Source: a virus. Taken from it: a stretch of DNA of 64,000 nt. The first letter of the stretch is position 1. Each line of letters begins with the position of its first letter. The position numbers were made by a program, and so were the translations under genes. Below the pieces are notes generated by a model. That model worked only from the letters and a program-made list of their open reading frames with translations, did no database searches and was not told the origin of the DNA. The DNA is taken from the IMG/VR virus record IMGVR_UViG_3300003323_000550, positions 1-64,000 of that record; one strand, given 5' to 3'. Shown here piece after piece: positions 951 to 45,958 of the stretch.

Positions 951-1114
951 GCGCCTGGCAGATCTGCGCCATCGCGGTGCTCTACATCCTCGCGCTCTGG
1001 GTCGGAGTTTCCTCCCGCGGCCCGATCTGCCTTACCCTGCCATCCCCTTCGCACTGCGCTCAGCCGGAGCTCGGTGCCGAGGCGATGTTGCCTCGATCAG
1101 GAGACCATCCATGA
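947..1114 (+). CDS. Small membrane protein
   Basis: 55-residue reading frame starting with an ATG that overlaps the previous stop, and ending at a TGA that overlaps the ATG at 1111. Residues 3-20 form one hydrophobic segment that could be a membrane anchor. The rest is short and polar. The perfect stop-start overlaps on both sides are the main support. Function unknown. Confidence 0.5.
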   Translation: MSAWQICAIAVLYILALWVGVSSRGPICLTLPSPSHCAQPELGAEAMLPRSGDHP

Positions 1115-1614
1115 AACGCCTGCTGTTTATCGCCATTGCCTCGCTGCTGCTGCTCACCGGCACCGCCAGCGCCGGCTCCCATCACCCGACCAAGGACGAG
1201 CTCAAGCAGTTCCTCGCCGACACCACCTGCTCGGCATCCGGCCACTCCCTCACCTGCACCAACGCCAAGGACGGCAGCTATCTCAAGCAGCTTCCCGACG
1301 GCACGCTGGTGATCGTCGGCCCCTCGACCTCGCAGGGGCAGATCGGCCGCGGCATTGGCTGCGAGGACGTCTTCCATTGGGGCGTGGCCTGCCCCATGCA
1401 TTCGACCGCCGAGGACAGTTTCTACCACGGCGCCAATGTCACCACGAAGATCCTGCCCGGTGGCAAGGTGGTGCAGGTCACCTGCACCCGCTCGAGCGCG
1501 ACCCTCGACTATACCGGCCGCACCTCGGGCGTGGGCGCGATCATCGACCACCTCAACCCCGATAAGTACGATCTCAGCACCTCCGGCCCGACCACGACCG
1601 ACGGCGCCTGCTGA
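1111..1614 (+). CDS. Small secreted protein with Sec signal peptide
   Basis: 167 residues. The N-terminus (MKRLLF, then a run of I, A and L, then TASAGS) is a classical signal peptide with an ASA cleavage box near residue 21. The mature part has six cysteines, consistent with a periplasmic disulfide-bonded protein. A GGAGA box lies eight bases upstream of the ATG. It is the last gene before a terminator. The fold is not recognised; a cell-envelope or superinfection role would be a guess. Confidence 0.65.
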   Translation: MKRLLFIAIASLLLLTGTASAGSHHPTKDELKQFLADTTCSASGHSLTCTNAKDGSYLKQLPDGTLVIVGPSTSQGQIGRGIGCEDVFHWGVACPMHSTAEDSFYHGANVTTKILPGGKVVQVTCTRSSATLDYTGRTSGVGAIIDHLNPDKYDLSTSGPTTTDGAC

Positions 1615-4041: not shown

Positions 4042-4490
4042 CCCCGCTCGCGCTCGAAATGCTGCTCTGGTTCTGCACGCGGACGGCCGAAGCGGGCCCG
4101 TTCCCGAACCTCAAAACCCATGAGCCGCAGAAAGAAATCCGCAACTGGATGCTGGCCGACGGCATCATCGAACCGTGGGACTTTTTCAGCCGGGAACCGA
4201 TCTACCGCGCGACCGACAAGGGCCGCGCCTGGCTGGACATGATCCTCGCCACCCCGATGCCCGAGCAGAAGTGGGTCGACCCGCGCACCGAGGTGAGCAA
4301 CAAGTCCCCTCTCGATATCCAAGCCGAACTCATGGAACAAATCCCGTGGGTGTCAGGCCAAACCCCGCGCCGCCCCGACCGCGCCGAGGACTTCGCCATG
4401 TGGTGGACCACCAGGACCGGCGAAGCCGCTGGCTGGACCCCGATGCGCGCCCTTGAGGAGTGGCGCAAAGAGAAGGGATTTGCAGTATGA
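4038..4490 (+). CDS. Conserved phage hypothetical protein, winged-helix-like
   Basis: 150 residues. The segment around residues 45-80 (ADGII...YRATDKGRAWLDMILATPMPEQKW) follows a pattern shared by many phage and prophage proteins: a helix, a T-D-K-G-R turn and a strand, reminiscent of a winged helix. Its role is unknown. It overlaps both neighbours by four bases. Confidence 0.55.
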   Translation: MTPLALEMLLWFCTRTAEAGPFPNLKTHEPQKEIRNWMLADGIIEPWDFFSREPIYRATDKGRAWLDMILATPMPEQKWVDPRTEVSNKSPLDIQAELMEQIPWVSGQTPRRPDRAEDFAMWWTTRTGEAAGWTPMRALEEWRKEKGFAV

Positions 4491-4783
4491 ACCGCCGCTC
4501 CCTCATCCTCGGCGGCGCTGCCCTGATCGCAGCACCAGCCGTCGTGCGCGCCGAGTCGCTGATGAAAATCGTGGTGCCGAAGCCTGCGCTGATCCCGTGG
4601 TCCGAAGTGCCGCTGACCGTGCGTGAGCTCCGACTGCGCAAGATCGAGTCCGACCTGATCATCAAAATGCTCTACATGCCGGCCATCGAATTGCCGGACG
4701 GCGGCTATGAGATCATGGACAGCGCTCCAGTTCTCGCCCAGTGGCGCGAGGTCAGGCGGCAGATCGAGGAACTGCGCGCATGA
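4487..4783 (+). CDS. Small exported protein with Tat-like signal
   Basis: 98 residues. The start MNRRSLILGGAALIAAPAVVRA has a twin arginine, a hydrophobic core and an alanine-rich cleavage region near residue 22, i.e. a Tat- or Sec-type export signal. The mature 75 residues are charged and helical. The ATG at 4487 overlaps the previous stop and is preferred to a GTG at 4460. Export of a protein encoded between packaging genes is unexpected; function unknown. Confidence 0.55.
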   Translation: MNRRSLILGGAALIAAPAVVRAESLMKIVVPKPALIPWSEVPLTVRELRLRKIESDLIIKMLYMPAIELPDGGYEIMDSAPVLAQWREVRRQIEELRA

Positions 4784-5718: not shown

Positions 5719-7181
5719 CGGAATCCCCCAGCGCACGCATCCGCCGGTGGCGCGAGAAGCCGTCCGACATGGTGCGGGAACTGTTCGGCGTCGAGCCGGA
5801 CCTGTGGCAGATCGAAGCCCTCGACGCCTTCCCCACCAATCCGCGCCTCGCGATGAAGGCGTGCAAGGGGCCAGGCAAGACCACGGTGCTCGCGTGGCTC
5901 GCCTGGAACTTCCTCCTCACCCGGCCACATCCCAAAGTGATCGCCACGTCGATTTCGGGGTCGAACCTGAGCGACGGCCTTTGGACCGAAATGGCCAAAT
6001 GGCAGCAGCGGTCCGAACTGCTCAAGCAGACGTTCACCTGGACCAAGACGCGCATTTTCGCCAACGACCACCCCGAGACGTGGTTCATGACGGCGCGCAA
6101 CTGGTCTCGCTCAGCCGATAAAGAACAGCAGGAAAATACCCTCGCCGGCCTGCATGCCGACTACATCTTGTTCATCCTCGACGAGAGCGGCGGCATTCCC
6201 GACGCCGTGATGGCGGCGGCAGAAGCTGCATTGTCGACCGGCATCGAAATGCACATCGTGCAGGCCGGCAACCCGACCCACCTCGAGGGGCCGTTGTATC
6301 GCGCCTGCTCGACCGAAAAAAACCTCTGGTACGTCATCGAGATCACCGGCGATCCGGACGACCCGAAGCGCAGTCCGCGCGTCAGCGTCGAATGGGCACG
6401 CCAGCAGATCCAGAAGTATGGCCGAGAGAACCCGTGGGTGCTGGTCAACGTGTTCGGCAAGTTCCCGCCGAGCTCGATCAACGCCCTGATCGGCCCGGAT
6501 GCGGTCAACGATTCCATGCGCCGGGTCTACACCGAGTATCAGGTGGGCAACGCGGCCCTGATCCTCGGGGTCGACGTCGCGCGTTTCGGCAACGCGGCCT
6601 CGGTGGTGTTCCCCCGCCGCGGCATCCAGATGTTCACCCCCACCAAGGTGCGCAACTACGACTCTGTGCAGGGAGCCGGCCTCGTGTCGCGCATCTGGCA
6701 CAACACCAACGCCGACGCATGCTTTGTCGATGACACCGGTGGGTTCGGCTCAGGCTGGATCGACCAGCTACGTGTGCTCAAGCGCTCCCCGATCCCAGTG
6801 CACTTCGCGGGCCAGGCGCACCAAAGCGACAAATACGCCAACAAGCGGACCGAGATGTATTTCGACTACACACAGTGGATCAAGGACGGCGGCGCCATGC
6901 CGAACGTTCCCGAACTCGCTGCCGCGTTGCCGGCCACCACCTACTCGTTCACCAAGTCGGGCCTTTTGCTGCTCGAGCCCAAGGAACTGGTCGAGGCCAA
7001 AATCGGCTACAGCCCTGACGATGCCGACGCCGGCGCACTCACCTTTGCTGAGCCCGTTGCACCTGCGCAGGTCAATGCCGGGCCGCGACCGACGAATGTG
7101 GCGGCCCAGAATTTCAACCCCTACGCTGAGAACCGGACCGACATCGCCAGCGCGGTCAACGGCAGCTACAAGCCCTTCTAG
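5715..7181 (+). CDS. terL: Terminase large subunit
   Basis: 488 residues from GTG 5715, which overlaps the previous TGA and follows a CGAGG box; an upstream in-frame GTG at 5697 is less likely. The motor ATPase shows a Walker A motif at residues 52-57 (GPGKTT) and Walker B at about 151-157 (ILFILDE). The C-terminal nuclease domain shows acidic residues typical of the RNase-H-like fold: Asp287 in ILGVDVARFG and Asp339-Asp340 in CFVDDTGGFG. It drives headful or site-specific DNA packaging into the prohead through the portal (8104). Confidence 0.92.
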   Translation: MTESPSARIRRWREKPSDMVRELFGVEPDLWQIEALDAFPTNPRLAMKACKGPGKTTVLAWLAWNFLLTRPHPKVIATSISGSNLSDGLWTEMAKWQQRSELLKQTFTWTKTRIFANDHPETWFMTARNWSRSADKEQQENTLAGLHADYILFILDESGGIPDAVMAAAEAALSTGIEMHIVQAGNPTHLEGPLYRACSTEKNLWYVIEITGDPDDPKRSPRVSVEWARQQIQKYGRENPWVLVNVFGKFPPSSINALIGPDAVNDSMRRVYTEYQVGNAALILGVDVARFGNAASVVFPRRGIQMFTPTKVRNYDSVQGAGLVSRIWHNTNADACFVDDTGGFGSGWIDQLRVLKRSPIPVHFAGQAHQSDKYANKRTEMYFDYTQWIKDGGAMPNVPELAAALPATTYSFTKSGLLLLEPKELVEAKIGYSPDDADAGALTFAEPVAPAQVNAGPRPTNVAAQNFNPYAENRTDIASAVNGSYKPF

Positions 7182-7891: not shown

Positions 7892-8104
7892 ATGGAAACC
7901 AGGCCGGGGACAAAGCTGATCGGAGATCTGCCGACGGGTGGCCAATGGCAGATCAAGGCGTTCGATGGGGTAGTGATCCTTGTCGATCTGACCGGCACGC
8001 ATCCTCCCATGATCGTGGAAGGCGACGAATTGCGCGTCCTCAAGCCCGTCGAGGGTGAAGTCTACGTCGAAGCGCAGTGCCTGATGCTGACGGCGAAAAA
8101 CTGA
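7892..8104 (+). CDS. Small hypothetical protein before portal
   Basis: 70 residues, predicted mostly beta (QIKAFDGVVILVDLTG..., EGDELRVLKP...EVYVEAQCLML). It ends in an ATGA-type overlap with the portal start at 8104. No family recognised. Confidence 0.55.
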   Translation: METRPGTKLIGDLPTGGQWQIKAFDGVVILVDLTGTHPPMIVEGDELRVLKPVEGEVYVEAQCLMLTAKN

Positions 8105-9921
8105 TGCCCGACGGCTCGAGCGTCACCATCACCGAAACCGCCGATTACATGGGGCCGTCGCTGCTCGCGCAGCAGCCGGTGACGCAACGCCGCTCGGCCG
8201 CCGACATGGCCCGGGAATGGACCGTCGCGTTCTCCAAGCTGGAATCGCGGCTGCTGATGCTGCGCTCGTGGCGGTTCTCGTGGTGGGTCTACTGGTCGAG
8301 CCTCGCCGCCTATTTCAATCCCAGACGCTACATCTGGCTGGTCGTGCCCAACCGTATGTGGCGCGGCTCCTCAATCAACGACCAGATCATCGACAGCACC
8401 GGGCTGCAGGCCGTTCGCACCTGCGCCGCCGGCATGTGGACCGGGCTGACCTCGCCTTCCCGGCCATGGTTCGCGATCGAGCTCGCCGGGCCTGAGACCG
8501 AGCTGGACGCCGACGCCAAGGCATGGATCGAGGACACCCAGAGCAAGGTCTATACGGTTCTGGCCAACTCGAATTTCTACAACACCATGGCGCAGGCGTT
8601 CGAGGACGTGACCGTGTTCGGCACGGCACCGGTGGTGCTGTATGAGGATTTCGAGAACGTCATCCGTCTCTACCTACCGGCCGCCGGCGAATATTACCTG
8701 GGCGTCGGCCCGGACCTGAGCACCGACACGTTCTACCGCGAGTTCACCTACACCGTGGCGCAGATCATCGGGCGGTGGCAGGTCGAGAACGTGCCGCCGG
8801 TGATTGCTACGCTTTGGATGCAGGGCGGCGGCTCGCTCGAGCAGGAGTTCGTCATCGCGCACTCGATCGAGCCGAACTTCGCTTTCAACGACGGTGCCGA
8901 CACACCGATTCGTCTGCTGCCCGAGGACTTCACTTGGCGCGAGGTCTACTGGGTGCGCGGCACCCGCTCGCCTCAGCCGCTCGAAATCCACGGCTTCCGC
9001 AGCCAGCCCATGTTCGCCGCGCGCTGGTCGACGGTGAGCAACGATGCCTACGGTCGATCGCCCTGTATGGACGCCCTGGGCGACAACAAGCAGGTCCAGT
9101 TCGAAACGCTGCGCAAGGCCGAGTTCATCGAAAAGGGCGTGCGCCCGCCGATGGGTGCCGACCCGGCGCTCAAGAACGAGCCCGCATCGATCATTCCGGG
9201 CAACATCACCTATGTCGGTGCCGATGGCGGCAAGAAAGGCTTCTGGCCGCTGTTCGAGCCCAACTACGGCTGGCTCACGGCCATCACCAACGACATCGAC
9301 AAGGTCAACGCCCGCATCGAGAAATGCCTGTTCGTCGACCTGTTCATGGCGATCAGCAGGATGGAAGGCGTCCAGCCGCGGAACGAGCTCGAACTGACGC
9401 AGCGCAACATGGAGCGGCTGCAGGAGCTTGGCCCGTTCATCCACATGTTCGAGACCGAGTTCGCCACTCCGCTGCTGCAGCGCATCATCGACATCATGAT
9501 GCGCAAGGGCATGCTGCTCCCGTTGCCGCCCTCGCTGCGCGGCCGGCCGCTCAAGATCACCTTCACCTCGATCATGCGCCAGGCGCAGCGGTCGATGGAA
9601 TCGGTGGCCATGAAAGACGTGCTCAATGTCGGCGGCCTGATGTCGGCGGCGGCGCGCAACGCCGGCCTGCCTGACCCGCTGCGCAATCTCAACCTCGATA
9701 AGGCATACCGCCGCTACGGCACCCTCAACGACTTCGATCAGGATCTGTGGTTCACCGTCGATGAGGTCGAGCAGCACGATCAGGCGCGCGAGCAGGCCAA
9801 GGCGCAGGCACAGGCACTGCCCGATGCCATGGCTGCAGCACAGGGCGCCAAGACGCTGGCCGAAACCCCACTGGAGAACGGCACCATGCTGTCCTCCCTC
9901 CTCGGACGATCACCTGCATGA
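8104..9921 (+). CDS. Portal protein (podovirus head-tail connector)
   Basis: 605 residues from ATG 8104. It resembles the podoviral head-tail connector family: an early segment with W-rich helices (WRFSWWVYWSSLAAYFNPRR), a region ...STGLQAVRTCAAGMWTGLTSPSRPWF, the SRMEGVQPRNELELTQRNMERLQELGPF helix typical of the stem/wing, and an Ala/Gln-rich C-terminal tail. Twelve copies form the ring through which DNA is packaged and ejected. A GTG at 8077 would add nine residues but lacks the stop-start overlap. Confidence 0.88.
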   Translation: MPDGSSVTITETADYMGPSLLAQQPVTQRRSAADMAREWTVAFSKLESRLLMLRSWRFSWWVYWSSLAAYFNPRRYIWLVVPNRMWRGSSINDQIIDSTGLQAVRTCAAGMWTGLTSPSRPWFAIELAGPETELDADAKAWIEDTQSKVYTVLANSNFYNTMAQAFEDVTVFGTAPVVLYEDFENVIRLYLPAAGEYYLGVGPDLSTDTFYREFTYTVAQIIGRWQVENVPPVIATLWMQGGGSLEQEFVIAHSIEPNFAFNDGADTPIRLLPEDFTWREVYWVRGTRSPQPLEIHGFRSQPMFAARWSTVSNDAYGRSPCMDALGDNKQVQFETLRKAEFIEKGVRPPMGADPALKNEPASIIPGNITYVGADGGKKGFWPLFEPNYGWLTAITNDIDKVNARIEKCLFVDLFMAISRMEGVQPRNELELTQRNMERLQELGPFIHMFETEFATPLLQRIIDIMMRKGMLLPLPPSLRGRPLKITFTSIMRQAQRSMESVAMKDVLNVGGLMSAAARNAGLPDPLRNLNLDKAYRRYGTLNDFDQDLWFTVDEVEQHDQAREQAKAQAQALPDAMAAAQGAKTLAETPLENGTMLSSLLGRSPA

Positions 9922-12156: not shown

Positions 12157-13206
12157 ATGCCGACCGGCGCTTGGCCGACCCTCCTCGATGCCGCATCGCG
12201 CAGCGAACCCGATGGCAACATCCCCCGCATTGCGGAGATGATGAGCCAGCACAATGCGATCGGCGGCGACATGCCGTACAAGGAAGCGAGCGAAATGACG
12301 GGGCACACCTTCGTGTTCCGCTCCTCGATCCCGACCGGCGCATTCCGCCAGTATAACCAGGGCACCCCCTACGGGAAGTCGACCACGGCCAAGGCCCGCG
12401 TCGGCATGGCGATGTTGCGCGGCTACAGCCAGATCGATCGCGATCTCGCCAACCACACCGGCAATGCCCAGCGCTTCCGCGAGACCGAGGACATCGCGTT
12501 CCTCGAGGGCATGGGCCAGACCATCGTCCAGACCCTGATCTACGGCAACACCATGGTGGATCCGACCCAGTTCATGGGCCTCGCCACCTTCTACAACACG
12601 ATCAACACCGCCGTGGCGCAGAACGCTGCGAACGTCATCAACGCCGGCGGCGTCGGCACCGACAACACCTCGATGTGGCTGATCGGCTGGGGCCTGCAGT
12701 CGATCTATGGCGTCTTCCCGCGCGGCTCCAAGGCCGGCCTCAACATGGAAGACAAGGGCTCGATCGTTCCGGCCTACGACTCGGCGGGCAACCGGTTCGA
12801 GGCATGGACGACCTGGTTCGGCCAGGATATCGGCCTCGTGCCCGAGGACTGGCGCTACGCCGTCCGCATCGCCAACATCGACACCACCGCCGGTCCGAAC
12901 GGGCTTGCCGGCGCCTCGCCGCCGGACCTGTTCGCCTACATGGCGAACGCGATCATGCTGCCGCCGGACACCAACATGCAGCTTTCGGGCATCGACGGCA
13001 CGGACGCCCCGGCCGACGACAGCCAGAAGCGCTGGTGCTGGTACACCAACCGAACCCTGCGCTACTGGCTGGACATCCAGTCGATCCGCAACCGCAACGT
13101 CCTGCTCACCGACAAGGACTACGCGGGCAATCCGGTCACCACCTGGCGCGGCATCCAGATCGATGTCGTCGACCGCATCATCAACACCGAAGCGGCGCTC
13201 ACCTGA
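12157..13206 (+). CDS. Major capsid protein (BPP-1 Bbp17-like)
   Basis: 349 residues with a strong ribosome site (CCAGGAGC). The N-terminus MPTGAWPTLLDAASRSEPDG, the following helix with IAEMMSQHNAIGGDMPY, and ETEDIAFLEGMGQTIVQTLIYGN match the capsid type of BPP-1-like and several other podoviruses (HK97 fold by family knowledge). It is followed by a cement protein as in BPP-1. No N-terminal prodomain is obvious, so scaffold functions come from the separate upstream gene. Confidence 0.88.
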   Translation: MPTGAWPTLLDAASRSEPDGNIPRIAEMMSQHNAIGGDMPYKEASEMTGHTFVFRSSIPTGAFRQYNQGTPYGKSTTAKARVGMAMLRGYSQIDRDLANHTGNAQRFRETEDIAFLEGMGQTIVQTLIYGNTMVDPTQFMGLATFYNTINTAVAQNAANVINAGGVGTDNTSMWLIGWGLQSIYGVFPRGSKAGLNMEDKGSIVPAYDSAGNRFEAWTTWFGQDIGLVPEDWRYAVRIANIDTTAGPNGLAGASPPDLFAYMANAIMLPPDTNMQLSGIDGTDAPADDSQKRWCWYTNRTLRYWLDIQSIRNRNVLLTDKDYAGNPVTTWRGIQIDVVDRIINTEAALT

Positions 13207-14727: not shown

Positions 14728-15744
14728 ATGGCGTCGCGCATTGCTGGTCGGCTGATCGGGCTCGCTGCCCTGCTCATCGCAGGGCTGTTGCCCACGGTCG
14801 CCCTTGGCGCGACGCTCTACGTCACCGAGTTCGCATCGCCGATCTCGCAGGATCGCTCGCAAACCGCCCAGAATCTGCCGCAGCCGGCCATCACCTCGCA
14901 GACGGTGACGTTCAGCGGCGCATCGGTCCAATCGGCCGCCTTCAACGCCAACACCCACGGCATCCAGGTTTACTGCGATGCCGGTTGTTCGGTCGTGGTC
15001 GGTGCCAATCCGACAGCCACCACGTCCAATCAGGTGCTCACCGCCAATCAGCCGCAGACCTTCACGGTGGTGCCCGGTCAGATCATCGCGGTGATCGCCA
15101 ATTCGAGCGGTAATCCTGCCGCCGGAACGCCCACCGGCATCACCAGCGTGAACCTCAACCAGGTTGGTGGCGCATCATTTTCGCAGGGTCAGAAGGCGAT
15201 GGCGGCCAGCCTCCCGGTGGTCATTGCCAGCGATCAAAGCGCAGTGTCGGTCTCGAATTTCAATGGCGCACTGCAGTCCGACGGTGACGGTATCTCGAAC
15301 ACCAACAGCACCGTGCAGGTGCTCAACTCGGCTGGCCTATCAGCGCACGGATATTCGATCTATCCGTGGGTCTACAACAACAGCACTTGGGACCGGATGC
15401 GCTCTGGCGGCGTCACCGGCATGGTTGGTGTTACGCCACAGGCGACACCGAGCGGCGGCGCCAGCTACACGCACATTGCGGCAGGTCAGGCGACCACGAC
15501 GGTCAAATCGGGAGCCGGCACGATCTACGCCATCATCTTCAACACCAAGGCCACGGCGACCAACGTAACGACGCTCTACGACAACACGGCTGGCTCGGGT
15601 ACGGTGATCGGCATCCCCGACGCGGTCAATGTGGCGGTAGGGCAAGCGATCAGTTACGGCCCGGTCGGACTGGCGTTTTCGACCGGCTTAACCATCGTCA
15701 CGGCGACCGCCAATGGTAGCGACATGACCGTGGTCTACAAATGA
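14728..15744 (+). CDS. Signal-peptide fibre/appendage-like protein
   Basis: 338 residues. Residues 1-28 (basic start, long hydrophobic core, then VALGA) form a Sec-type signal peptide. The rest is S/T/N/G-rich and beta in character. It includes GQKAMAASLPVVIASDQSAV, a motif frequent in phage appendage proteins, and a C-terminal domain with alternating V/T/A. By family knowledge this is virion-like, yet virion proteins normally lack export signals. It is the first of several such genes in this cluster. Confidence 0.65.
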   Translation: MASRIAGRLIGLAALLIAGLLPTVALGATLYVTEFASPISQDRSQTAQNLPQPAITSQTVTFSGASVQSAAFNANTHGIQVYCDAGCSVVVGANPTATTSNQVLTANQPQTFTVVPGQIIAVIANSSGNPAAGTPTGITSVNLNQVGGASFSQGQKAMAASLPVVIASDQSAVSVSNFNGALQSDGDGISNTNSTVQVLNSAGLSAHGYSIYPWVYNNSTWDRMRSGGVTGMVGVTPQATPSGGASYTHIAAGQATTTVKSGAGTIYAIIFNTKATATNVTTLYDNTAGSGTVIGIPDAVNVAVGQAISYGPVGLAFSTGLTIVTATANGSDMTVVYK

Positions 15745-15764
15745 TCGGAAAAGGAACCGTATCC

Positions 15765-16148
15765 ATGAAAAATCTGCGCATTTTGTTGCTCGCGATCCTC
15801 TGCATCGGGATAGGCAGCACCATCGGCGCCTTCGGTGCCTTTCAGTCGGGCGTACTGACGCTGACCGGCTTCCCCACCTTGGGACGCATTCCGATCGACA
15901 ACGGTGGCCCCGAGTTCACCAATTTGCGCGAGGCCGCCGGCACGGTGACGCTGAACGGCGCGACGCCGGTCACGGTCACCAACGCAAACATCACCACCGG
16001 CTCGGTCATCATCTTCACCCTCAAAACGGTCGGCGGCACGGTGAGCCCGAATGCACCGAACGTTCTGACCATCACGCCAGGCACCGGTTTCACCGTCGGC
16101 GGCACGGCGCTGGATACGTCGACTTACAATTTTGTCATTCTGGGATGA
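15765..16148 (+). CDS. Small signal-peptide beta-rich protein
   Basis: 127 residues from ATG 15765, chosen for the AAGGAA box nine bases upstream; an in-frame ATG at 15741 overlaps the previous stop. Residues 1-25 (MKNLRILLLAILCIGIG...) are a signal peptide or membrane anchor. The remaining part is T/V/N/G-rich beta (GTVTLNGATPVTVTNANITTGS). The last 14 bases are overlapped by an HNH gene on the other strand. Confidence 0.6.
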   Translation: MKNLRILLLAILCIGIGSTIGAFGAFQSGVLTLTGFPTLGRIPIDNGGPEFTNLREAAGTVTLNGATPVTVTNANITTGSVIIFTLKTVGGTVSPNAPNVLTITPGTGFTVGGTALDTSTYNFVILG

Positions 16149-16629
16149 ATCGGCGGTAGCCCTTATGAGCCCACGGACGAGCACCGCTGACCACCTGAAA
16201 CATGGCTCCCTGATTGAGTCCGTGTTCCCGGCAGAACTTCGTGAGGTTAATACCGTGGATCACCGTTCCATCTGGGGCGATGACGGAAAAGGGCTTCTGT
16301 TTACGCTTCCGCATGGCCTCTTTGTTGGCATCGGAAGTAGTCTTCCCGAAGTACGGATGGGCCTCTCCCTTCGGAAAGCGATATGCACGAGAATTTCGAC
16401 CCTTTGCGGCGCAGTCCTTCATATTGTCCGACTGCGTGCCCTGAAACAGATGCTCCAAGCGAACGCATCTCGTGTTATCGCAATGATGCAAAACGTAGAG
16501 CTTCGGATGCATCGGGCCGTAGACCTGCTCGGCGTAAGCCTTTCGATGTGGGCCATAGCCGGAGCCATTGACGGCTCCGGTCCAATTCCAGCATTCATCC
16601 GTCTTGTCGACGCGCGACCAATCAACCAT
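16135..16629 (-). CDS. HNH homing endonuclease, antisense insertion
   Basis: 164 residues on the opposite strand to the whole late block. The HNH core spans about residues 10-80: CWNWTG at 13-18, then LHHCDNTRCVRLEHLFQGTQSDNM with His48-His49, Cys50, Cys55, His60 and Asn69, the HNH_3-type zinc and catalytic pattern. The C-terminal 50 residues (HGINLTKFCREHGL...W..KGYRRF) resemble the DNA-binding repeats attached to homing endonucleases. It overlaps the end of the upstream gene by 14 bp and sits between two signal-peptide genes. Stand-alone mobile endonucleases of this kind copy themselves between related phages. Confidence 0.85.
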   Translation of the reverse strand: MVDWSRVDKTDECWNWTGAVNGSGYGPHRKAYAEQVYGPMHPKLYVLHHCDNTRCVRLEHLFQGTQSDNMKDCAAKGRNSRAYRFPKGEAHPYFGKTTSDANKEAMRKRKQKPFSVIAPDGTVIHGINLTKFCREHGLNQGAMFQVVSGARPWAHKGYRRFIPE

Positions 16630-16702
16630 GCGCCGACGATATGCCGTAGACCGTCAATCTTCAACTACGCCGTCGTTTGACGCGAACCCAAGGAGAATCC
16701 AC

Positions 16703-17995
16703 ATGAAACTCACTCATCTCGCTGGGCTCGCGATTGCGGCCCTTCTCACTCTGGGGGCGGCAGTTGCCGATGCCCAGACCCTACCGCAGGTCACCTCGAT
16801 CAACCCCACGGATTTGATCCAGGTCATTCCCCGCGGCGTGCCATCGGCCGGTAATCAGTATGCCAGCACCACACAGTTGGCCGGCTTCGGCATTTCAGCG
16901 GCGACCAAGATCAACGCTCTGATCGGCGGCGATGCCGGCACCAATCTGTTCCAGCGCGCCACGACCGGCTCGAGCGTCACGACCACCATCACCTATGGCG
17001 GCCCGGACCGCTGGGCCTACTGGTCTGGCACGAATACGGCGATGACCGTCAGCCGCGACACCACGGCGGCCGATCTTCCCGCCAGCGGTAGCTACCAGGC
17101 CGCGTTCAAGATGGCGCGTACGTCCGGCCAGACCGGCGTCGTGCCGCTCTGCATGGTGCAGGAAGTCGAGTCGGTGAACTCCTACATGTTCCAAGGAGCC
17201 ACCGCCGAACTCGATTTCTGGGCGACTGCGGGGGCCAATTTCTCGGCGGCAAATAGCGCGCTGACGGCCTACATCATCACCGGCACCGGCACCGATGAAG
17301 GCGTCTCCAAGATGGCCTTCGCCTTCAATGCGGGTGGAGGCGGCTCCAGCACTTGGACCGGTCAGGCGACGACCGTAGCCGATGTGGCGACGATCAGCAC
17401 CGTGCCGACCCGGTTCGCGGCGGTCGGCGTGATCCCGGCGGGCACCACCGAGATCGGCGTGGTGTTCTGCTATACCCCGGTGGGGACGGCGGGCACCAAT
17501 GACTATGTGGCGCTGACCGGCATTCAGTTGAGCCGCAATGCGGCGCTGACTTCGATCGCTTCGCAGACCACGGCGACCGACTGCTCGACGATCAACTGCT
17601 CGTCCTATGACCGGCGTCTGATCGGACAGGAAACCGCCCTGCAGCAGCGCTACTTCTACAAGATCGCGGAAAGCGCTGCGATTACGGTCATCGCTCCATG
17701 CGCCAACTCGACCACGTCATTGGCGCTGTGTCAGGTGCCTTTCCCGACGACTATGCGAACGGCACCGACGATGACCTATACGACCGGCTTTGCGGCCAAC
17801 ACCACCACGGCCATGACCGCTGTGACGGCGTGCACGTCCCTCGGCACTTCCACGGCGGTTGCCTCGACCGCTGCAAACGTACAAGGTGTCTTGGTGGCGT
17901 GCGGATCATCGGCCGGCTTCGGCGCGGCTGGCACGACCAGCTTCCTATATTCCAACAACGGCTCAGGCGTCATCAACGCCAGCGCCGAACTCTGA
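16703..17995 (+). CDS. Signal-peptide fibre-like protein
   Basis: 430 residues from ATG 16703, which follows AGGAG; reading further upstream only enters DNA antisense to the HNH gene. The first 23 residues (MKLTHLAGLAIAALLTLGAAVADA) are a clear Sec signal with an ADA cleavage box. The following segment (TLPQVTSINPTDLIQVIPRG...NQYASTTQLAGF) is a motif at the start of many phage fibre/lectin-type proteins. Residues 100-300 look like a beta-sandwich, carbohydrate-binding-like region. Cysteine pairs near the C-terminus would suit oxidising periplasm. Confidence 0.65.
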   Translation: MKLTHLAGLAIAALLTLGAAVADAQTLPQVTSINPTDLIQVIPRGVPSAGNQYASTTQLAGFGISAATKINALIGGDAGTNLFQRATTGSSVTTTITYGGPDRWAYWSGTNTAMTVSRDTTAADLPASGSYQAAFKMARTSGQTGVVPLCMVQEVESVNSYMFQGATAELDFWATAGANFSAANSALTAYIITGTGTDEGVSKMAFAFNAGGGGSSTWTGQATTVADVATISTVPTRFAAVGVIPAGTTEIGVVFCYTPVGTAGTNDYVALTGIQLSRNAALTSIASQTTATDCSTINCSSYDRRLIGQETALQQRYFYKIAESAAITVIAPCANSTTSLALCQVPFPTTMRTAPTMTYTTGFAANTTTAMTAVTACTSLGTSTAVASTAANVQGVLVACGSSAGFGAAGTTSFLYSNNGSGVINASAEL

Positions 17996-18005
17996 CGAGG
18001 TCGAT

Positions 18006-18257
18006 GTGAGCGAGTTCGGCTTCATCACGGTCCAGTTCACGGGACGTAACGGATCGGGGACTATCAGCGTCCCCGGTCTCAAGAGCGGCGACAAGGTGAT
18101 CTGGTCCGCCTACACCAGAAGCCCTGCTCCGCAGCTTTACAGCGCGCCCGGAGCCTTCATCGACTTTCAGGTGACGGTCGATGACCAGATCGAACAGATC
18201 GACACCTCGAATAACAGCAGCGCCACCATTGACGCGCTGATCTATCGGGGCGGTTGA
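18006..18257 (+). CDS. Small beta-rich hypothetical protein
   Basis: 83 residues from GTG 18006 (MSEFGFITVQFTGRNGSGTISVPGLKSGDKV...). Alternating hydrophobic pattern and G/S-rich turns indicate an all-beta domain, such as an appendage accessory. GAGG lies close upstream. It ends one base into the next ATG. Confidence 0.55.
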   Translation: MSEFGFITVQFTGRNGSGTISVPGLKSGDKVIWSAYTRSPAPQLYSAPGAFIDFQVTVDDQIEQIDTSNNSSATIDALIYRGG

Positions 18258-18442
18258 TGCCGTTCAAGTCGCAGGCGCAGCGCGGACTCATGTACGCGGC
18301 TGCATCACACAAGGGAGGCGCCGGTGGCGTCTCCCAATCCGCTGCCAAGAAGATGATCGCCGACGATCAGCCAGGCAAACTGCCCGAGCATGTCAGCGAC
18401 AAGAAGCGGAAGGGGCTCAGCTACAAATCGATGGGTAGCTGA
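18257..18442 (+). CDS. Small basic virion-region protein
   Basis: 61 residues, starting MPFKSQAQRGLMYAAASHKGG, a pattern seen in many short phage proteins (K-S-x-A-Q-R-x-x-M). Basic and probably helical with a flexible tail. ATG overlaps the upstream TGA and its own TGA overlaps the next ATG. Possibly a minor structural or DNA-associated protein. Confidence 0.55.
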   Translation: MPFKSQAQRGLMYAAASHKGGAGGVSQSAAKKMIADDQPGKLPEHVSDKKRKGLSYKSMGS

Positions 18443-18717
18443 TGCCGTCGCCCACCCTCATCGACGCCGCCTCGAGGACGATGCCCATGGCCGACAAGCC
18501 GAAGCGCAAGAACTGGATCCAGAAGGCCGTTCCCGACAAGAACAAGGGCAAGTTCGCCGCCAAGGCCAAAGCCGCCGGCAAGACCACCAGCGAATATGCA
18601 TCCGAGCATGCAGGGGATAGCGGGACGCTGGGCAAAGAAGCTCGCCTCGCCCAGACCCTGATGGGTATGCGCAAGAAGAAGTCGCTCACCTACTCCAATT
18701 CCAAGATGAAGGACTGA
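18442..18717 (+). CDS. Small lysine-rich protein
   Basis: 91 residues (or 76 if the ATG at 18487 with GAGGA upstream is used). The core KNWIQKAVPDKNKGKFAAKAKAAGKTT is strongly basic and resembles short conserved proteins encoded near phage head genes, which may contact DNA. Function unproven. Confidence 0.55.
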   Translation: MPSPTLIDAASRTMPMADKPKRKNWIQKAVPDKNKGKFAAKAKAAGKTTSEYASEHAGDSGTLGKEARLAQTLMGMRKKKSLTYSNSKMKD

Positions 18718-18721
18718 CGCC

Positions 18722-19123
18722 ATGGCCCTCAAATACAATTCGATGGAAAAGGCCAAGGCCGAGGAACCCAAGACCGAGCCCAAGCCGGAGGAAAAGCCCG
18801 CGCCCAAAGATGGCGAAAAGCCCGCCGAGAGCAAGGTCATGGCCAGCGACGACGAGTCGGCAGGCACTGCGGCGGCGGATGCGCGCAGCACCATGATGGG
18901 GAAGCATTCCGAGGCCCGTAAGGGGCTGATGAAGACCCATCTCGCCGAGCGCCGCGACATGAACGGTCGCCATCGCGACGAAATCAAGCAGATGCATGAT
19001 CGCCATGAGAAGGCGATCCAGGACATGCTCGACGCTCACGACCTCGAACTCAATGGTGCCCAGCCCGCCGAGGCCACGCCTGCCGAGGAGAAGCAGGCGA
19101 ACACCGAAGCCGGAAACGAGTGA
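18722..19123 (+). CDS. Coiled-coil, charge-rich protein
   Basis: 133 residues. N-terminal K/E/P-rich disordered segment (about residues 8-40), then a long helix rich in H, R, D, M and K (residues 55-110: KHSEARKGLMKTHLAERRDMNGRHRDEIKQMHDRHEK region) of coiled-coil type. May be an assembly chaperone or minor virion protein; not recognised. Confidence 0.55.
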   Translation: MALKYNSMEKAKAEEPKTEPKPEEKPAPKDGEKPAESKVMASDDESAGTAAADARSTMMGKHSEARKGLMKTHLAERRDMNGRHRDEIKQMHDRHEKAIQDMLDAHDLELNGAQPAEATPAEEKQANTEAGNE

Positions 19124-19130
19124 GGCCGCG

Positions 19131-19496
19131 ATGAAACTCAATCCGATGGTCTCGATGGAACTGGACGAGGAAGAAAGCCTCGACACGGTCATGCCCATCC
19201 CGATGGACGAAAAGCCGGAGTATCCATACGGCCTGCGCATCTGCCTCACCGACGCCGAGATGACCAAATTGGGCATCGATCCGTCTGAAGCGGTGACCGG
19301 CATCGGCGGTCTCGTGCACATCCACGCCTTGGCCCGCATCACCTCGGCCAGCCTCGATCAGAACGCCGATGGTGCTCGCGCCCGCGTCGAGCTCCAGATC
19401 GAAGACATGGCGGTCGAGAGCGAAGATGACGAAAACGGCGAGGCGGACGACGCGCCCGTTGCCAAGAAGCGCTCGCTGATCTACGCCTCCTCCTAA
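19131..19496 (+). CDS. Capsid staple-like protein
   Basis: 121 residues. After an acidic N-terminus, residues 20-90 follow the pattern of the phage capsid staple family: EYPYGLRICLTDAEMTKLGID...GLVHIHALARITSAS...ARVELQIEDMAVE. These small proteins bridge capsomers in several tailed phages and are usually encoded near head genes. The C-terminus is acidic with a short basic end. It is separated from the capsid gene here by the fibre cluster. Confidence 0.6.
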   Translation: MKLNPMVSMELDEEESLDTVMPIPMDEKPEYPYGLRICLTDAEMTKLGIDPSEAVTGIGGLVHIHALARITSASLDQNADGARARVELQIEDMAVESEDDENGEADDAPVAKKRSLIYASS

Positions 19497-19516
19497 CCCT
19501 GTCCGAGGTCACATCG

Positions 19517-21523
19517 ATGTCCCTGCTCCGCGGTGCCGTGCTCGCTTTCATCCTCGCGCTGGCCCCTGCGGCAGCCGAGGCGCAATCGACGGTGTTGCAG
19601 GCCGGTCCTTGGGCCTCCGGCCACGCGCCGATGTATACCAACTCGGGCGGCAGTCAGCCGATCGTGGTCGACAGCGGCACGGCGGGCGGTGGGGGCGCCG
19701 GCGTCGGGCTCAAGGAGCTCGGCATCACGGTGCGCGGCACCGGCACGCCGCCCTATGCCAATGCCGGCACCGGGCCGAACGGCGAGAACATCTGCGACTA
19801 CGACGCGCCGACCACCAACGCCACCGGCTACCACTATCTCTGCATGTCGCCCAATGCCCAGGGTGGCGGTCTCATCAGCTACGGCGCGGCGGGAGCGGCG
19901 ACGACGTTGCCCCTCAACTTCCTCGTTAACGGCACCAGCTACGAGTTCCCATTCTCGATCGGCGGTGTCGTCGGCCCTGCCTCGTCGGTGGTCAATGATG
20001 CGGCCTGCTGGAACAATACCTCGGGCACGCTGCTCAAGGATTGCGGCGCGTTCGTTACCGTCGGCGGCAACAATACCTGGACTGGAACGAACAATTTTAC
20101 CGGTCCCTTCCAGATCAACTCGGTGCCGCAGACCTTCCCGCCCAGTGGCAACATCGTCGGCACCTCGGACAGCCAGACGCTGACCAATAAGTCGATCGGT
20201 GCCAGCCAGATCAACTCCGGCACCTTGCCCGCCACTGTGATGCCGGCGCTCACCGGCGATGTCACTTCATCGGCCGGCACGGTGTCGACCACGATCGCCA
20301 ACGGTGTGGTCACCAATGCCAAACTGGCGACCGCAACGCAGAACACGGTCAAGGGCGCTGCAGTCTCGACGGCGGTGACCGACCTGGCCGTGCCATCGTG
20401 CTCGAGCGCCAACAATGCGTTGCAGTGGACCACCAATACCGGCTTCTCCTGCGCGACGGTCACGGCCTCGACCGCCGGGTTCGGCATCAATCTAAGTGGC
20501 GGCGTCTTTTCGATTTCCCAGACCCAGCCGCCTTACGGCTTCGATATGCCCGTCAACATGGGGCTGACGGCCAGTGTCGGCGGCTCCAACCTGACGATCA
20601 ACGTCGTCGGCGCGAATGGATCGGCACCCAGTGCGTCCAACCCGGTGATGATCCCATTCCGGTCGACGACGTTGACCACGGGAACGCCTGTGTGGGTCGC
20701 GATCACGTCCGCCCAGTCGCTGGTAATTCCCTCGGGTGCCACTTTGGGGACGTCCAACGGCGTGCCGTTCAGGATCTGGCTGTTCGAGACTTACAGCTCG
20801 GGCACACCGCAGATCGGCGCGGCCATCTGCACGGTCTCGCCGACGACTTACCCTTGCTCATCGTGGGAAACCACCCGCCAGACATCGACCACGATCACCG
20901 GCCTGTCGACGTCGCCTGGAACCCTCTACACGACGACGGGTGTCTCGAACGATGCAGTTCGGATCATTGGCTATGCCGAGTATGCCAATGGCCTGACCAC
21001 CGCCGGTCTCTATGCTTCGGTGCCAACAACGCTACAATTGATGGGACCGGGCGTCGCTCGTCCAGGCACAATCATCCAGAGCCCGCGCACCGATACCGGA
21101 GCCGTGGCCACGGGCACCACAGTTATTCCGGCTGACGACACGATCCCTCAGAATACCGAAGGCGACCAGTATATGTCGCAGGCGATCACGCCTCGCAGCA
21201 CCTGCAATTTGCTGCGCGTTTCGGTTCTGGCTGGCGCTCTCTCGAACACGACCGGCGCAGGCATCTTTATGACTGGAGCACTGTTTCAGGACAGCGTTGC
21301 CAGCGCATTGGCGGCTGGCGGCTTCGTTGAGACCAATGCGCAGTACAACTGGCCGATGACCATGAATGTGACCGTTCTGGCCAACACCGTCAGCACCACG
21401 ACGTTCAAATTTAGGGCTGGAGCTTCGTCTGCCGGCACCACGACATTCAACGGTGTCAATGGTGTTCGGCGCTATGGCGGAGTCATCAATTCCTACATGC
21501 AAGTCGACGAGATCATGGGGTGA
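19517..21523 (+). CDS. Large signal-peptide tail-fibre-like protein
   Basis: 668 residues. Residues 1-22 (MSLLRGAVLAFILALAPAAAEA) are a signal peptide with an AEA box. The body has fibre signatures: repeated N-T-W-T-G-T-N-N-F-T, SQTLTNKSIGASQINSGTLPATVMPALTGDVTS and VVTNAKLAT segments, i.e. G/T/N-rich beta repeats that form trimeric shafts in phage collar and tail fibres. The C-terminal 250 residues look like a globular receptor-binding domain. An exported fibre is unexpected; see findings. Confidence 0.7.
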   Translation: MSLLRGAVLAFILALAPAAAEAQSTVLQAGPWASGHAPMYTNSGGSQPIVVDSGTAGGGGAGVGLKELGITVRGTGTPPYANAGTGPNGENICDYDAPTTNATGYHYLCMSPNAQGGGLISYGAAGAATTLPLNFLVNGTSYEFPFSIGGVVGPASSVVNDAACWNNTSGTLLKDCGAFVTVGGNNTWTGTNNFTGPFQINSVPQTFPPSGNIVGTSDSQTLTNKSIGASQINSGTLPATVMPALTGDVTSSAGTVSTTIANGVVTNAKLATATQNTVKGAAVSTAVTDLAVPSCSSANNALQWTTNTGFSCATVTASTAGFGINLSGGVFSISQTQPPYGFDMPVNMGLTASVGGSNLTINVVGANGSAPSASNPVMIPFRSTTLTTGTPVWVAITSAQSLVIPSGATLGTSNGVPFRIWLFETYSSGTPQIGAAICTVSPTTYPCSSWETTRQTSTTITGLSTSPGTLYTTTGVSNDAVRIIGYAEYANGLTTAGLYASVPTTLQLMGPGVARPGTIIQSPRTDTGAVATGTTVIPADDTIPQNTEGDQYMSQAITPRSTCNLLRVSVLAGALSNTTGAGIFMTGALFQDSVASALAAGGFVETNAQYNWPMTMNVTVLANTVSTTTFKFRAGASSAGTTTFNGVNGVRRYGGVINSYMQVDEIMG

Positions 21524-45229: not shown

Positions 45230-45958
45230 TCAGGCAGTCGGCGGTACGGGCGGCGTCGGCGGCACCGGCGCGGGCTCGTTGGCGCCCGGAGGGGGGACGT
45301 TGGTGGTCTCGACCGGCTGACCGGCGGGCACGGTGAAGACGCCCGGATTGCTGTCGCCCTGCGACGTAGTGACCAGCACGACCAGATCGTTCGCCGCGGT
45401 GCCCTCGGGCACCGTCGCGGTCACATGCTCGGCGTCGGGCCCGGCAAAGACCGTCGCCGGAACGCCGCCGAAGCTGACGCCAGTGAGACCGTCGAGATCG
45501 CGGCCGGTGATGGTGACCTGGGTGCCCGCCGGACCGGACGCCGGTTCGACGCTGGTGATGTAGGGAGGCATCAGATCCTTGACCGGATCGGCGGGATTGA
45601 GCGGTTCGCCGTCGGCGCTGATCGCCGCAGTGATGTCGGCGAGGTCGGCGTGGAACTTCTGGTGCAGGTCATCGATCTTGGTCTGCACGTCGCCGGGGAT
45701 GGTGGGGTTGTTCTTGAGCGTGTTGAGCTCGGCCAGCAGGTCGCCGACCATATGGATCAACTTGGTGGTGCCGTCTTTCAGCGCGGCCTCATCGGCCTCG
45801 ATATCTTCGATTTTAGCCATGGTCACTCGTCCTTGGTTGAGAATCAGGTGGTCGTCGTGGGCAACAACCCCGAGCAACTGCAGCACGGCATCAAGTTTGA
45901 CTTCGATGCGATGGGCCTGAGCGCCGGAGGCCAATAGTCCGTAACTCTGCTGGGTCAT
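45230..45958 (-). CDS. IPT/TIG-domain protein with coiled coil
   Basis: 242 residues. Residues 132-212 form an IPT/TIG immunoglobulin-like domain (PPYITSVEPASGPAGTQVTITGRDLDGLTGVSFGGVPA...). The N-terminal half is helical, and a Pro-rich tail ends the chain. The start at 45958 overlaps the upstream stop (ATGA). An internal ATG at 45820 with AAGGA ten bases upstream would give a 196-residue form, so two products are possible. TIG domains are common on phage surface appendages, yet this gene sits at the end of the early operon. Confidence 0.65.
   Translation of the reverse strand: MTQQSYGLLASGAQAHRIEVKLDAVLQLLGVVAHDDHLILNQGRVTMAKIEDIEADEAALKDGTTKLIHMVGDLLAELNTLKNNPTIPGDVQTKIDDLHQKFHADLADITAAISADGEPLNPADPVKDLMPPYITSVEPASGPAGTQVTITGRDLDGLTGVSFGGVPATVFAGPDAEHVTATVPEGTAANDLVVLVTTSQGDSNPGVFTVPAGQPVETTNVPPPGANEPAPVPPTPPVPPTA

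Follow-up and report, generated by a model that had tools for sequence, protein, structure and literature searches.

The 64.0-kb window analysed here (the whole stretch, positions 1 to 64,000 of the 66.3-kb IMG/VR record IMGVR_UViG_3300003323_000550; GC content 64%) carries several genes, named below by their first coordinate, whose products combine fibre-like bodies with predicted N-terminal export signals. The window is that of an epsilon15-like podovirus and contains the GP7 capsid protein (PF20911), portal (PF12236) and gp10-like protein (PF21628) of epsilon15/BPP-1-type phages, together with tail proteins (phrog_394 and phrog_376) and internal virion proteins. Export-type signals had been proposed in an initial annotation for 14728, 15765, 16703 and 19517, and all four were found in frame behind plausible ribosome-binding sites, with Shine-Dalgarno-like sequences at the start codons. 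The N-termini read MASRIAGRLIGLAALLIAGLLPTVALG/ATLYV, MKNLRILLLAILCIGIGSTIGAFGA/FQSG, MKLTHLAGLAIAALLTLGAAVADA/QTLPQ and MSLLRGAVLAFILALAPAAAEA/QSTVL, respectively (the slash marks the predicted cleavage), the cleavage site of 15765 being the weakest of the four. Each has a positively charged n-region, a hydrophobic core (h-region) of 9-14 residues and an A-x-A-like site with small residues at -3 and -1, a combination that identifies them as predicted Sec signals of the signal peptidase I type. The first mature residues would be A28 for 14728, Q25 for 16703 and Q23 for 19517, with ATLYVTEFASPISQDR, QTLPQVTSINPTDLIQVIPR and QSTVLQAGPWASGHAPMYTNSGGSQPIVVDSGTAGGGGAGVGLK as the corresponding N-terminal peptides.

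These four genes had been described as adjacent, which is not strictly the case since an HNH endonuclease gene (16135-16629, minus strand; PF13392 and a NUMOD3-like motif) intervenes between two of them and four small genes, including the gp10-like gene at 19131, separate 16703 from 19517. The HNH gene looks like a homing endonuclease insertion. The set of signal-bearing genes is also wider than first noted. Signals on these metagenomic contigs were called with a rule-based scorer combined with a home-made gene caller, and scanning all open reading frames (ORFs) of at least 60 amino acids (aa) revealed the same kind of signal on 38446 and 40777, which occur shortly 3' of the giant 31219 gene, the position of bbp9 and Mtd in BPP-1. 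In the window's signal-bearing fibre genes, a lipobox scan detected no +1 Cys of the Llp/Cor type involved in superinfection exclusion, their products gave zero Pfam matches to an outer-membrane beta-barrel translocator (autotransporter or type V), and a C-terminal hydrophobic anchor is absent, the C-termini corresponding to beta-strand ends (VINSYMQVDEIMG, GVINASAEL).

Conservation of the signals was most evident in the 19517 family. Its homologs were gathered with a motif, HY[LFI]C[LM][SD][PA]N, that sits in the mature protein, so that the resulting collection of 37 loci is unbiased with respect to signals. A signal was found in every 5'-complete homolog, the few missed by the scorer because of a long n-region being plain by eye. 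Among 32 distinct N-termini, position -3 is A in 28 (V, T or S otherwise), -1 is always A, G or S and +1 always Q, with -2 free. Pairwise identity is only 19% over the 15 residues that precede -3 (h-region) vs 49% over the first 22 mature residues. Such a fixed -3/-1 site behind an unalignable h-region is a signature of signal peptidase I rather than of anchoring in a membrane or virion. In the 16703 family, signals occur throughout an alignment of 16 sequences and in 18/18 further homologs, and the domain located directly behind the signal has been swapped among several types, indicating that export, rather than one given N-terminal domain, is what is kept. In neither family was the signal lost in any 5'-complete homolog.

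The level expected by chance is low, with 16 out of 1,942 shadow ORFs (0.8%) passing the signal rule. Core virion genes were surveyed in ten genomes, namely the window and nine mapped relatives (58-68 kb, whole IMG/VR records), and only 2/126 passed, both of them artefacts: one is the tail nozzle gene 23585 when read from an upstream GTG, its true start being probably the ATG of MAVPLLDLAFATGELAP rather than the listed GTG, and the other is a small ORF of G008 with a weak match to the major capsid protein. None of the BPP-1 tail-fibre genes passes the rule, and about 30 proteins from other phages, in which the C-terminal knob is the only part in common with 19517, have no signal either. Fibre genes of the RcZahn, ppBjS10J-1 and Manatee Spring podoviruses (cultured records, short matches) are likewise devoid of signals. 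Overall, these comparisons show that fibre modules carry selected export signals of the cleavable type, and they strongly support cleaved export of these proteins, which is very probable.

Two families further provide natural signal-free versions. For 14728, the signal is present in the window, G005 and G006, where the protein spans 338-637 aa and includes a C-terminal extension, and absent from G003, G007 and G008, where the domain occurs alone (97-102 aa). The signal-free homologs start at the residue following the predicted cleavage (M-AALYISEF in G003 and M-ATLYISEF in G007 vs ALG/ATLYVTEF in the window), from which it follows that the body works without the helix. A C-x3-C pair is common to the signal-bearing proteins and that spacing is missing from the others, a small hint that disulphide bonding may occur. 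These relatives were found only via the synteny of whole records; a single-protein scan of viral contigs confirmed none. Among cultured phages, Pelagibacter HTVC106P, a Bradyrhizobium phage and a Planktothrix phage have more distant versions, each a lone signal-free gene of ~95 aa; in the Pelagibacter and Bradyrhizobium phages it lies two to three genes behind the head-protein gene. For 15765, the signal is found in the window and G004, and six other homologs are signal-free. A FastTree tree of the concatenated sequences of six virion proteins places the window and G007 as sisters, although the two differ in signal status at both the 14728 and 15765 loci, and G003 likewise departs from its sisters G005/G006, which means that gain or loss of the signal took place repeatedly. 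In G007, the gene immediately following the signal-free homolog of 14728 is itself signal-free and encodes 696 aa (G007:6012-8102, L126); it has no family match, and its start region resembles a beta-helix spike by eye.

That the bodies are fibre-like, as initially described, was borne out by the K1-lyase_C and glycine-rich domains of 15765 and 40777 (Table 1), by the folds of the modelled proteins and by the matches of signal-bearing siblings to fibre and spike PHROGs. The model of 19517 has a mean predicted local distance difference test score (pLDDT) of 61, with good values for the C-terminal 150 residues; this knob has a Z score of 16.5 with Pgp3, of about 13 with the TNF-like lectins PLTL and BC2L-C and of 9.3 with the cyanophage A-1(L) short tail fibre. 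In the 16703 model (pLDDT 73), the jelly roll of the carbohydrate-binding module (CBM) type has a Z score of 15 and is shared by two phage tailspikes, CBA120 TSP4 and K2-2 TSP (Z 13-14). The C-terminus of 38446 matches fibre proteins of cyanophages and Caulobacter phages. Among the siblings, which come from related contigs, G005:50383 matches tail-fibre PHROGs (best 2.7e-30), G003:54249 tail-spike PHROGs, G005:49277 a right-handed beta helix and L012:4041 a lysophospholipase L1-like esterase. A PDB sequence search with 19517, 16703, 38446, 15765 and 40777 gave no credible match. Taken together, the bodies are predicted adhesin and spike modules, of glycan-binding type by a fold likeness that does not prove sugar binding. 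Within the 19517 gene, a 78-bp stretch (20598-20675) shows a 73% match to the opposite strand of the same gene (query 5871-5948), forming an imperfect inverted repeat.

Table 1. Signal-bearing genes and context features of the window
Feature	Coordinates	Strand	Remarks
Signal-bearing protein, 338 aa	14728..15744	+	Signal 14728-14808; ~100-aa domain at mature start, then C-terminal extension; C-x3-C at residues 83/87
Signal-bearing protein, 127 aa	15765..16148	+	Signal about 15765-15839; body PF24146 K1-lyase_C (tailspike C-terminal domain)
Signal-bearing protein, 430 aa	16703..17995	+	Signal 16703-16774; CBM4/CBM16-like jelly roll ~69-280; 8 mature Cys
Signal-bearing fibre-like protein, 668 aa	19517..21523	+	Signal 19517-19582; conserved N-domain QSTVLQAG..GHAPMY; TNF/C1q-like knob 518-668 (about 21068-21520)
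Signal-bearing fibre-like protein, 776 aa	38446..40776	+	Slot of BPP-1 tail-fibre gene bbp9
Signal-bearing protein, 295 aa	40777..41664	+	MKRLGLLFVTLAFLCAGLVPSSA/MLPG; PF21722 glycine-rich domain; mtd slot
Portal (PF12236)	8077..9921	+	Context; without signal
Major capsid protein (PF20911 GP7)	12157..13206	+	Context; without signal
Epsilon15 gp10-like protein (PF21628)	19131..19496	+	Context, between 16703 and 19517; without signal
Tail nozzle, 1332 aa	23585..27583	+	Large extra domains; 8 cysteines

The signal-bearing state extends beyond the lineage of the window. It was also found in contigs having no PF12236 portal match, including one that encodes a myovirus baseplate wedge and hub (L053) and contigs L057-L059, in which the 16703 body occurs behind different signals and N-domains; it is thus not a quirk of one lineage. 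The myovirus-type contig contains a fibre-like gene of ~1060 aa (L053:7435-10608) with the export signal MKTLFAALAMIGVLLGACDFAQA/QSTINPNIPAANSS, in which LLGAC can alternatively be read as a lipobox. When the mature N-domains of L053, L058 and the L147 type were searched against cultured phages using tblastn, zero matches were obtained. Signals of the twin-arginine (Tat) type were observed as well, in a 481-aa fibre-like protein starting with ..LLKRRSFALGLGTAVGALVVSKAQA/GNVGPLMARNNLADLNDASQAR (G007:685-2130, minus strand) and in a small protein of the window (MNRRSLILGGAALIAAPAVVRA; 4487-4783, plus strand) that has a weak PF10518 match and an N-terminus similar to that of G008:48554-48844 (minus strand). 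A Tat-exported fibre would leave the cell interior folded.

Other observations concern the remainder of the window and its occurrence elsewhere. Upstream of the terminase and far from the fibre genes, a 167-aa protein without family match (1111-1614, plus strand) begins with a textbook signal (MKRLLFIAIASLLLLTGTASA) and has six cysteines in its mature part. A tRNA-like gene predicted by ARAGORN (45546-45640, plus strand; anticodon undetermined) lies antisense within the minus-strand ORF 45230-45958 and is probably spurious. When 20 kb of the window were compared with 50,697 phage records by megablast, zero matches were obtained. Family alignments of 19517 and of 16703, used as queries, detected zero relatives among 84,980 species genomes of bacteria and archaea, and the lack of prophage copies is consistent with lytic phages.

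We tentatively favour a scenario in which these proteins would be secretory precursors of the glycan-binding fibres of the phage. The host Sec pathway would export the precursors and signal peptidase I would cut the signal off, after which the mature fibres, with their trimeric knobs, CBM-like and spike modules and, for several of them, possible disulphide bonds, would gather in the periplasm, the host being presumably diderm. At lysis, cytoplasmic virions and periplasmic fibres would mix and the fibres would dock on the virions via the conserved N-domains that are common to paralogs, the virion being finished outside the cytoplasm. From the present data we infer the periplasmic location, the docking at lysis and the role in adsorption, and the complete chain of events falls somewhat short of an even chance.

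The main argument for fibres as parts of the virion is the near absence of signal-free fibre genes from the ten genomes: by our count, about 39 fibre-like genes have a signal and a single large candidate (G007:6012-8102) has none, the smaller signal-free late proteins resembling head proteins as we read them. The initial annotation had proposed either that the proteins are exported to the periplasm or surface, where they serve as decoys or modify receptors, or that the hydrophobic N-terminus has taken on the role of a virion anchor. Its export branch is upheld by the cleavage site fixed in 32 homologs and by signal-free homologs that start at the mature residue, data that disfavour the anchor; since almost every fibre-like gene carries a signal, docking at lysis, a third option, fits at least as well. 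Further, the fibre genes of the window lie within the virion operon, and paralogs with the same N-domain and differing C-termini coexist in G002, G003, G006 and G008, as expected for a shared docking site or socket. Physically, late docking is possible because, according to the account of Israel et al. (1967) cited in PMC3741392, P22 tail parts join heads in vitro.

Several points weigh against this scenario. Spanin-like lipoproteins, the sole hint of a diderm host, occur in only some relatives. We know of no tailed phage that assembles exported fibres, and the open-licence literature searched yielded no report of such assembly or of signal peptides on tailed-phage fibres; target proteins of phage diversity-generating retroelements have no signal peptides (PMC6199706). 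The nozzle 23585 differs from other core virion proteins by its large inserts and cysteines and is a possible alternative receptor-binding site, which could free the exported proteins for another job. Cysteine pairs suited to the periplasm had initially been noted for several of the four proteins; 14728, 16703 and 19517 have 2, 8 and 9 mature cysteines (2 and 4 in 38446 and 40777), and 15765 has none. In the 19517 protein, Cys 93 and Cys 109 do not vary across nine homologs, and mature signal-bearing proteins contain 1.38% Cys vs 0.38% for core virion proteins. However, this contrast mainly reflects Cys-poor core virion proteins, other phage genes reaching 1.19%, and the number in 19517 is odd; the argument is therefore weak and the Cys content is at best compatible with disulphides.

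The same signals would equally suit cleaved, exported proteins that never join the virion, such as soluble periplasmic or extracellular adhesins, depolymerases or decoys, with receptor binding by the virion residing elsewhere, e.g. in the nozzle inserts. They may mask or trim host glycan receptors and so reduce superinfection or keep progeny off debris after lysis, or may be released as decoys. The lectin-like bodies agree with such roles, and there are well-established examples of phages exporting proteins with an activity on the envelope (T5 Llp, lambda Lom and T4 RI). Lom and RI are documented as such in PMC12309495 and PMC8385771, respectively. Under this explanation, however, hardly any of the ten genomes would retain a fibre or spike recognisable as a separate entity. 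It does not account for genes sitting inside the virion operon and in BPP-1 fibre slots, and supposes four to six large fibres per phage, many for blockers; moreover, the window proteins have neither lipobox nor outer-membrane translocator for reaching the surface. We regard it as a serious possibility, ranking behind fibres that dock at lysis. A mixed pool, in which inefficient or bypassed signals let cytoplasmic chains be built into virions and the exported fraction has another role, is improbable: the existence of 14728 and 15765 with and without signals in close relatives implies that both locations are tolerated for those families, but the 16703 and 19517 families are never signal-free in 5'-complete homologs and no conserved internal start was noticed. 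An uncleaved virion or membrane anchor, to which the hydrophobic helix in the 19517 model and the weak cleavage site of 15765 might point, appears very unlikely given that the -3/-1 rule and the +1 Q are fixed and the helix itself is not conserved, that signals are short (median 21 aa) and that signal-free 14728 homologs begin at the mature residue. Finally, wrong start codons or chance hydrophobic N-termini can practically be dismissed in view of the low background, the conservation across the 16703 and 19517 families, for which the conserved cleavage site refutes such an artefact, and the Shine-Dalgarno-like sites at the proposed starts.

On a broader view, which we hold with somewhat greater reserve, a whole clade of tailed phages with dsDNA genomes might deliver its receptor-binding fibres via Sec, mature them in the periplasm and complete its virions only at lysis and outside the cytoplasm, a trait that would have arisen repeatedly and be present in unrelated podovirus and myovirus contigs as well. 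Tailed-phage assembly is in textbooks wholly cytoplasmic, and the data imply that some tailed phages either finish their virions outside the cytoplasm or deploy, as an additional weapon, secreted arsenals of spike domains and of lectins resembling fibres. The annotation of receptor-binding proteins in uncultured phages is also affected since a signal peptide is easily mistaken for evidence of a host gene.

When compared to known systems, the window shares with epsilon15/BPP-1-type podoviruses the capsid, portal and gp10-like proteins and a gene order ending in tail-fibre and Mtd slots, but the genomes here measure 58-68 kb, have additional fibre genes located between those for capsid and tail, and carry export signals on fibres that have none in BPP-1. 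The tail fibres and tailspikes of phages (lambda central fibre, A-1(L) short fibre, CBA120 TSP4 and K2-2 TSP) present the same modular TNF-like knobs, CBM-like, K1-lyase_C and Gly-rich modules in late operons, yet the known ones have no signal peptide and are put together in the cytoplasm. The secreted TNF-like bacterial lectins BC2L-C and PLTL and the chlamydial Pgp3 have the fold of the 19517 C-terminal domain (Z 12-16.5), with an identity of only 10-16%; they are not phage fibres, and fold likeness is not proof of sugar binding. T5 Llp, lambda Lom/Bor and T4 RI are phage-encoded and exported with a signal peptide, but are small non-virion proteins as opposed to large modular fibres encoded without lipobox in a virion operon. 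A parallel for a receptor-binding protein is pIII of filamentous phages, which is Sec-exported, has its signal cleaved, is held by a C-terminal membrane anchor and assembles in the inner membrane during extrusion; the proteins described here lack such an anchor and belong to a tailed dsDNA podovirus, and they resemble pIII as receptor-binding-type phage proteins with a predicted Sec signal.

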